Origin: Bacteroidota bacterium
Lineage (GTDB): Bacteria > Bacteroidota > Bacteroidia > B-17B0 > Aurantibacillaceae
Length of the DNA: 64,000 bases
Direction of reading: 5' to 3'
Assembly (NCBI GenBank): GCA_020403265.1
Contig: JADBXZ010000012.1
Location: forward strand, 124,001-188,000
Shown piece by piece: positions 9,531-10,049 of this stretch. The stretch's first letter is position 1, and each line of letters starts with the position of its first letter. The position numbers and the translations under genes were made by a program. Under the pieces are notes generated by a model. The model was not told where the DNA came from. It made no database searches and saw only the letters and a program-made list of their open reading frames with translations.

Positions 9531-9554
9531 AAAAGCCACCTGTCGGTGGCCTTT
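9531..9554. terminator. Shared terminator between convergent acs and rplS
   Basis: GCCACC (9535-9540) pairs with GGTGGC (9545-9550) around a 4-base loop, flanked by A-rich sequence on one side and CTTT on the other. It can therefore serve both convergent genes. Confidence 0.65.
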
Positions 9555-9574: not shown

Positions 9575-9943
9575 TTATTTAGATGCAGATGTATTTTGAA
9601 CCTTTTCACGTATACGTGCAGATTTACCTGTACGCTCACGGATGTAGAAAATTTTAGCGCGACGAACCACACCTACTTTATTCACTTCGATTTTATCAAT
9701 GAATGGTGAAGCTACTGGAAAAATACGCTCTACACCTACACCGTTACTCATTTTACGAACAGTAAAAGATGCTGTTGCCGCTTCATTTTTTCTCTGGATA
9801 ACAACACCGGTAAATTGCTGAATACGCTCCTTATCACCCTCTTTAATTTTGTAAGAAACAGTAATGGTGTCACCAGCCTTGAAAGCCGGGTGCTTGCTTT
9901 CAGCAGTTAATTGCTTTTTTACGTAGTCTAATAATAAACTCAT
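9575..9943 (-). CDS. rplS: 50S ribosomal protein L19
   Basis: L19 (bL19) is a structural protein of the large ribosomal subunit at the subunit interface. The 122 residues contain the family core [52 protein letters not shown] and [20 protein letters not shown]. It is a stand-alone gene here, without the rpsP-rimM-trmD neighbours seen in many bacteria. About 70 bases of leader separate it from a promoter box at 10017-10024; that leader can fold (see separate entry). Confidence 0.97.
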
Positions 9944-9965
9944 AATTGTTTGTTTTAATCGTTAA

Positions 9966-10011
9966 CGTTTTTAGCATTCTTTACCTCGTGTAAACAGCGG
10001 CTTTAAAAACG
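9966..10011 (-). promoter_or_regulatory. Candidate structured leader of rplS mRNA
   Basis: In the untranslated leader, CGTTTTTA pairs with TAAAAACG (10004-10011 with 9966-9973) as a perfect 8-bp stem. Inside it, TTTAC and GTAAA (9980-9984 and 9990-9994) form a second hairpin with a 5-base loop, and a GC/GC pair can extend the outer stem past a 2-base bulge. Position and shape suit an autoregulatory ribosomal-protein leader. The function is inference. Confidence 0.45.
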
Positions 10012-10016
10012 GGATG

Positions 10017-10049
10017 CAAATATATTGAATTTTTTGAAATTCAATCAAA
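10017..10049 (-). promoter_or_regulatory. Promoter for rplS: TTTG-N21-TATATTTG
   Basis: On the minus strand the -7 box TATATTTG (10024 to 10017) lies 21 bases downstream of TTTG (10049 to 10046). It would produce an rplS leader of roughly 70 bases. Confidence 0.5.

Follow-up and report, generated by a model that had tools for sequence, protein, structure and literature searches.

Background

The L19 leader catalogued in Rfam 15 (RF00556, from Firmicutes) lies, by its name, upstream of rplS, the gene encoding ribosomal protein L19. Its outer stem ends in a C-G pair and is followed by the internal-loop strand CGCUG, a hairpin (P2), the strand G-N-A-N and the returning arm of the outer stem. Eckert and Weinberg (2020; PMC7247131) state that numerous instances of the Firmicutes L19 leader occur in Flavobacteria as well. 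The same study places L13, S4, S15 and S16 leaders in Bacteroidota; these share the phylum and the proposed mode of control with the RNA described here, but precede different genes. In the open-licence literature we found no other paper evidently on Bacteroidota L19 leaders, and the terms "L19" and "rplS" are absent from the main text of a survey of structured RNAs in the human microbiome (PMC8040213). As far as this literature shows, the leader type described here is new to its own family.

The locus lies in a stretch of 64,000 nucleotides, referred to here as the window. A first-pass annotation of the window had proposed a leader of about 70 bases, with an 8-bp outer stem enclosing a 5-bp hairpin, between a well-formed promoter and a stand-alone rplS gene. 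It had also pointed to L19 leaders proposed in other bacteria, including flavobacteria, which PMC7247131 confirms. Our verdict is that this RNA represents the L19 autoregulatory leader in a form particular to its lineage, in which L19 would bind the RNA and repress its own gene.

Results and discussion

A stand-alone rplS gene with its own promoter and leader

The genome has a single rplS match. Genes on the plus strand flank rplS on both sides, and the gene therefore stands alone, as the first-pass annotation had assumed (Table 1). The strong terminator-type hairpin downstream is perhaps common to rplS and the converging gene. Reading the A-rich linker between leader and start codon revealed no stretch resembling a Shine-Dalgarno sequence.

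Table 1. Features of the rplS locus, in window coordinates
Feature	Positions	Strand	Description
Upstream promoter element TTTG	10046..10049	minus	read from sequence
Promoter box TATATTTG (TAnnTTTG)	10017..10024	minus	21-nt spacer after TTTG
P1 5' arm	10000..10011	minus	CGUUUUU, bulge AA, AGC
Internal loop, 5' side	9995..9999	minus	CGCUG, consensus CKCUG
P2 hairpin	9980..9994	minus	UUUAC (ACGAG) GUAAA, 5 bp, 5-nt loop
Internal loop, 3' side	9976..9979	minus	GAAU, consensus GWAY
P1 3' arm	9966..9975	minus	GCU AAAAACG
Linker from leader to start codon	9944..9965	minus	A-rich, 22 nt
rplS	9575..9943	minus	122 aa, stand-alone, ATG at 9943
Terminator-type hairpin 3' of rplS	9531..9554	minus	GC-rich stem then U; folding z -5.1

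The promoter noted in the first pass is of Bacteroidota type. We take its TTTG to be a -33 element; of the 70 own-family leaders that have a box, 64 carry TTG or TTTG about as far upstream of it. The TAnnTTTG box of Flavobacterium psychrophilum spans positions -12 to -5 (PMC9723704). If the same rule applies at this locus, transcription is predicted to begin near position 10012 and to yield a leader of 69 nt, close to the length first estimated. The predicted start is thus just 5' of P1 and not inside it, and the promoter pattern would place the leader within the transcript. The promoter spacer (10024-10045) also contains an inverted repeat, ATTGAA...TTCAAT; at this place, a shorter repeat, TGAT...ATCA, is present in the close relative L002.

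Both helices proposed in the first pass are present, namely CGTTTTTA (10011-10004) opposite TAAAAACG (9973-9966), and TTTAC opposite GTAAA (9994-9990 with 9984-9980). The former is contained in a longer P1, in which 10011-10005 and 10002-10000 pair with 9975-9966. P1 is therefore predicted to comprise seven pairs, a 2-nt bulge and three pairs, rather than one unbroken 8-bp helix. The seven outer pairs of P1 are predicted to form with probabilities of 0.86-0.99, the two G-C pairs adjacent to the internal loop with 0.83-0.93, and those of P2 with 0.95-0.99. The 3' edge of the structure is 22 nt before the rplS AUG. The folding energy of the window leader alone does not exceed chance (z of -0.78; 43 of 200 shuffled sequences are as stable).

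Conservation and covariation in the family

In the window's own family, designated f1, an rplS match was found in 79 of 87 genomes. Leaders were read for these 79, of which 77 are distinct; a second, weak L19 match in G026 was left out. The alignment rows derive from 159 loci with 110 distinct leaders, 73 of which matched the core pattern. Removal of a false core match (L093), merging of identical 56-nt stretches and addition of L068 and L077 gave 70 rows. The ungapped alignment A1 holds 68 of them, the deviant L068 and L077 being omitted.

In A1, P2 is paired in 98.5% of cells, and both sides have changed at three of its five pairs. Cells with changes on both sides number 58, compared with 20.2 in shuffled alignments (reached in 0 of 500), though the tally of doubly changed pairs does not stand out from the shuffles (3 versus 2.4; 215 of 500). 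Nineteen distinct P2 stems occur. Because neither the sequence nor the register of P1 is constant, arms were exchanged between leaders to test it. Helices formed by a leader's own arms score 11.74 on average, and those formed by swapped arms 9.94 (sd 0.22), with 0 of 2,000 swaps reaching the native value. Dereplication to 22 f1 leaders gives 11.64 versus 9.46 (0 of 2,000). By subset, the result is 0 of 2,000 for the window's own genus and weaker, 18 of 2,000, for other genera, a subset that includes one own-genus leader (L061).

The letters between the stems show very little variation. GCC, CU, A and GC are invariant in A1. Within the 5' side of the internal loop, C, C and U are invariant, G is present in 67 of 68 leaders, and the second letter is G or U. 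Correctly placed GCCKCT occurs in 72 of the 77 distinct leaders.

A final descriptor of core and stems, fixed after the leaders had been seen, is matched by 68 of the 77 distinct f1 leaders, by 15 of 3,850 Markov shuffles and by none of 138 stretches further upstream. A stricter early descriptor, which called for four unbroken P1 pairs, matched 15 of 77 leaders in f1, 27 of 30 and 14 of 30 in the families f54 and f33 discussed below, and 6 of 82 in others; its low yield in f1 reflects the bulges or interruptions that most members of that family have in P1. Another earlier version matched 8 of 119 other leaders.

Nine f1 leaders fail the final descriptor. Four of these (L017, L142, L152 and L153) retain the greater part of the core, their P2 or loop being imperfect, two (L119 and L155) are reduced, and in three from a single genus (L157-L159) the leader is absent. 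The reduced leaders belong to smaller genomes (L119/L068, 2.3 Mb; L155/L077, 2.5 Mb); P2 is reduced or lost in them and P1 and the core are partly kept, as if the control were decaying. Two further leaders from one genus, L060 (about 1950-2000) and L134, carry approximately 28 extra bases between leader and ATG that appear hairpin-like by eye.

A covariance model built from f1 (R1) finds one good place in the window's own genome, which is before rplS and scores 69.2 bits, versus 20.4 bits for the next match. Judged by sequence comparison, the rplS leader is a real conserved RNA structure that goes beyond a chance fold and is tied to rplS. This conclusion derives from the comparison with relatives and not from folding energy. 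The covariation of both stems among relatives and the predicted start outside the structure agree with the first-pass proposal of a structured leader.

Related leaders in other Bacteroidia families

The core CKCUG-(P2)-GNAY also precedes rplS in two other families. We take f54 to be Flavobacteriaceae-like, judging from its L19 sequences and the large number of genera in it, and f33 is taken for Bacteroidaceae, or Bacteroides-like. The final descriptor matches 27 of 30 leaders in f54 and 19 of 30 in f33, with 7 of 1,500 and 4 of 1,500 controls, respectively.

In f54, CKCTG-(P2)-GNAY is found before rplS in 27 of 30 leaders, and the segment displayed between the two stem arms is CTCTG-(P2)-GWAY. 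The alignment A2 comprises 27 of the 28 anchored leaders among these 30; L302 was omitted, as its 3' anchor looked wrong. The f54 leaders are too alike to provide more than a trace of covariation of their own.

For f33, 23 of 30 leaders could be anchored independently of pairing (alignment A3). Each of the first four P1 pairs is formed in 23 of 23 leaders, compared with 23.0, 19.7, 21.2 and 20.3 when 3' sides are swapped. Double changes occur at 9 of 10 pairs (0 of 500 shuffles), and the count of further pair types is not above shuffles, either here (105 of 500) or with f1 and f33 combined (494 of 500). The f33 loops vary in length. Inspection of the f33 leaders (L303-L332) and of one from family f57 (L251) gives a picture of Bacteroides-like, covarying leaders of L19 type in which P1 is richer in GC and the loop of P2 is longer.

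A joint alignment, A4, combines 20 f1 leaders (the 22 dereplicated ones minus L017 and L024) with 20 of the 23 f33 leaders (minus L307, L311 and L325). The core is kept throughout. At the second position of P1, 24 leaders have a G-C pair and 16 an A-U pair; at the third, 12 of the 40 do not pair. The count of pairs with double changes in A4 is not above shuffles (251 of 500).

Covariance models trained on one family do not cross to the others. At E 0.05, R1 detects none of the leaders of f54 or f33, and its one match outside f1 across the class, a weak one in G245 (E 0.013), is not at rplS. A model built from f54 (R2) yields 10 matches in 49 f1 loci, none at the leader, and finds no leader among 30 f33 loci. 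This behavior counts against a simple claim of homology. Because one-family models fail in this way, f1 and f33 were combined in a joint model (R3). With f54 excluded from training, R3 gives 18 matches in 30 f54 loci, 16 of them exactly on the leader and each weak on its own (E 0.18-4.5).

Applied to 69 loci of other class genomes, R3 ranks as its best five the leader of an f33 genome that had also served for training, one f57 leader (E 0.0014) and three f54 leaders; a further match, in L189, is off the leader. Over 395 class genomes, R3 has matches in 22, namely 14 of f1, 3 of f33 and 5 that are weak (E 0.0066-0.043). The f1 and f33 matches are at rplS where the rplS position is given, and two weak matches (G191 and G264) are in genomes where rplS is elsewhere.

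Among 82 leaders outside the three family sets, a collection with at least one wrong start (L228), six carry the motif, and all six are from f33, f54 or f57 genomes. The median distance from promoter box to ATG is 34.5 nt in these others (56 of 82 with a box), compared with 72 nt in f1 and 70.5 nt in f54. The measure is rough; it gives 36 nt in f33, whose leaders themselves contain matches to the box pattern. The short distances suggest that many leaders in other families lack room for the structure. In families that are near by L19 sequence, for example f21, the leader is absent, which likewise speaks against a simple history.

Relationship to known L19 leaders

The RF00556 model gives no match in the window at its gathering score, and is absent among the matches listed at loose E-values, whether for the window, for eight relatives or for two stretches of leader alone; the sub-threshold Rfam matches in these sequences look like chance. 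Its cut-off is reached in none of 87 family genomes and none of 395 class genomes, and the weak family matches listed up to E 10 include none at rplS.

By eye, a reading to which no statistic attaches, the RF00556 core C-CGCUG-(P2)-G-N-A-N-G is nevertheless present in the window (10000-9975) and in A1. The two RNAs differ in P2 sequence, in the outer stem and in the 3' side of the loop, which is GCAA in RF00556 and GWAY here, a difference of two letters. At column 37, 2 of 68 A1 leaders share the C of the Rfam consensus. The flavobacterial leader of PMC7247131 likewise precedes rplS in Bacteroidia, and would have the same core if f54 corresponds to the set described there. The leader reported here differs in belonging to another family, in its AU-rich, bulged P1, and in a P2 of 5 bp with a 5-nt loop.

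The first-pass annotation had left undecided whether the leader belongs to the known class or to a new one, and had suggested an Rfam scan. The scan does not recognize the rplS leader of the window, of the family or of the class genomes. The core, common to f54 and f33 and close to that of RF00556, speaks for the same class, whereas the outer stem, hairpin and loop are specific to each lineage.

Proposed function and alternatives

We consider it quite probable that the leader is an autoregulatory L19 leader, in which free L19 binds the internal loop and lowers rplS translation. P1 and P2 would present CGCUG opposite GAAU to free L19. When L19 exceeds the available rRNA, the protein would hold the structure at the 5' end of the mRNA, and the bound structure might then hinder loading of the 30S subunit at the A-rich start region, so that less L19 is made. 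L19 is the presumed ligand because rplS is the only gene of the apparent transcript and because the RNA resembles other L19 leaders. Repression is the presumed outcome. Translation initiation is the presumed step, because of the leader's position and because P1 is not followed by a run of U residues, which would be a sign of attenuation.

Mimicry of the L19 site on rRNA was also considered, and no resemblance was found in E. coli rRNA. Scanning E. coli 16S and 23S rRNA for the core between stems returned nothing with the strict core, and looser core letters returned five places in 23S rRNA over two scans, none tied to a known L19 site.

A structured leader could also act without L19, either as a 5' stem-loop that protects a highly expressed mRNA or as a target read by another protein or the ribosome. 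P1 is AU-rich and lies at or beside the predicted 5' end at a nearly fixed distance, as such a role would favor, and binding by L19 is something that we infer. However, a plain stabilizer needs none of the CKCUG and GWAY letters, which are kept between stems in three families. Moreover, the single good genomic place for the model is before rplS, and the Firmicutes L19 leader in Rfam has the same loop. Thus, we regard a role without L19 as unlikely, if still the most credible competitor of L19 autoregulation.

The inverted repeat might instead be read as double-stranded DNA, for example if the first bases transcribed contained a discriminator or operator. Its distance from the TAnnTTTG box is indeed very constant, at 13-16 nt from box to core in 69 of 70 own-family leaders; from core end to ATG, the distance is 27-37 nt in 70 of 72. 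A DNA palindrome is hard to reconcile with the 20 G-U type pairs that the mRNA strand keeps among 340 P2 cells (17 U-G and 3 G-U), which would be mismatches in DNA, or with the asymmetric internal loop, the variable loop lengths in f33 and the covariation. These features make a DNA element very improbable.

A leader peptide starting at the AUG within GWAUGC has still less in its favor. This AUG is present in 70 of 72 f1 leaders, but the frames that it opens run from 2 to 25 codons, five of them without a stop in the stretch read, and are in all three registers relative to rplS (21 of 70 in frame). Furthermore, L012 and L153 have a broken AUG, and 4 of 28 f54 and 4 of 23 f33 leaders carry ACG instead. 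The leader peptide was rejected on account of these short frames in all registers and broken AUGs. Finally, a chance fold in an AT-rich leader, which the unremarkable folding energy would allow, is contradicted by covariation and conservation in both f1 and f33, and can be given almost no weight.

Conclusions

On the reading we prefer, L19 autoregulation, one more family of Bacteroidia joins those with L19 leaders, and the same comparison adds a Bacteroides-like family. Since no class genome reaches the RF00556 cut-off, such leaders will escape annotation pipelines that depend on this Rfam model.

The patchy spread of these RNAs poses the question of whether they were kept and lost or were invented several times for the same protein. 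Many rplS leaders of in-between families look too short for the module. We suggest, tentatively, that one ancient L19-binding module, with a CKCUG/GNA loop and freely changing stems, persists in Firmicutes, in flavobacteria-like and Bacteroides-like groups and in the window's own family and was repeatedly lost between them, or else that the loop arose several times because L19 itself forces it. The core common to three families points to the letters that L19 should touch.
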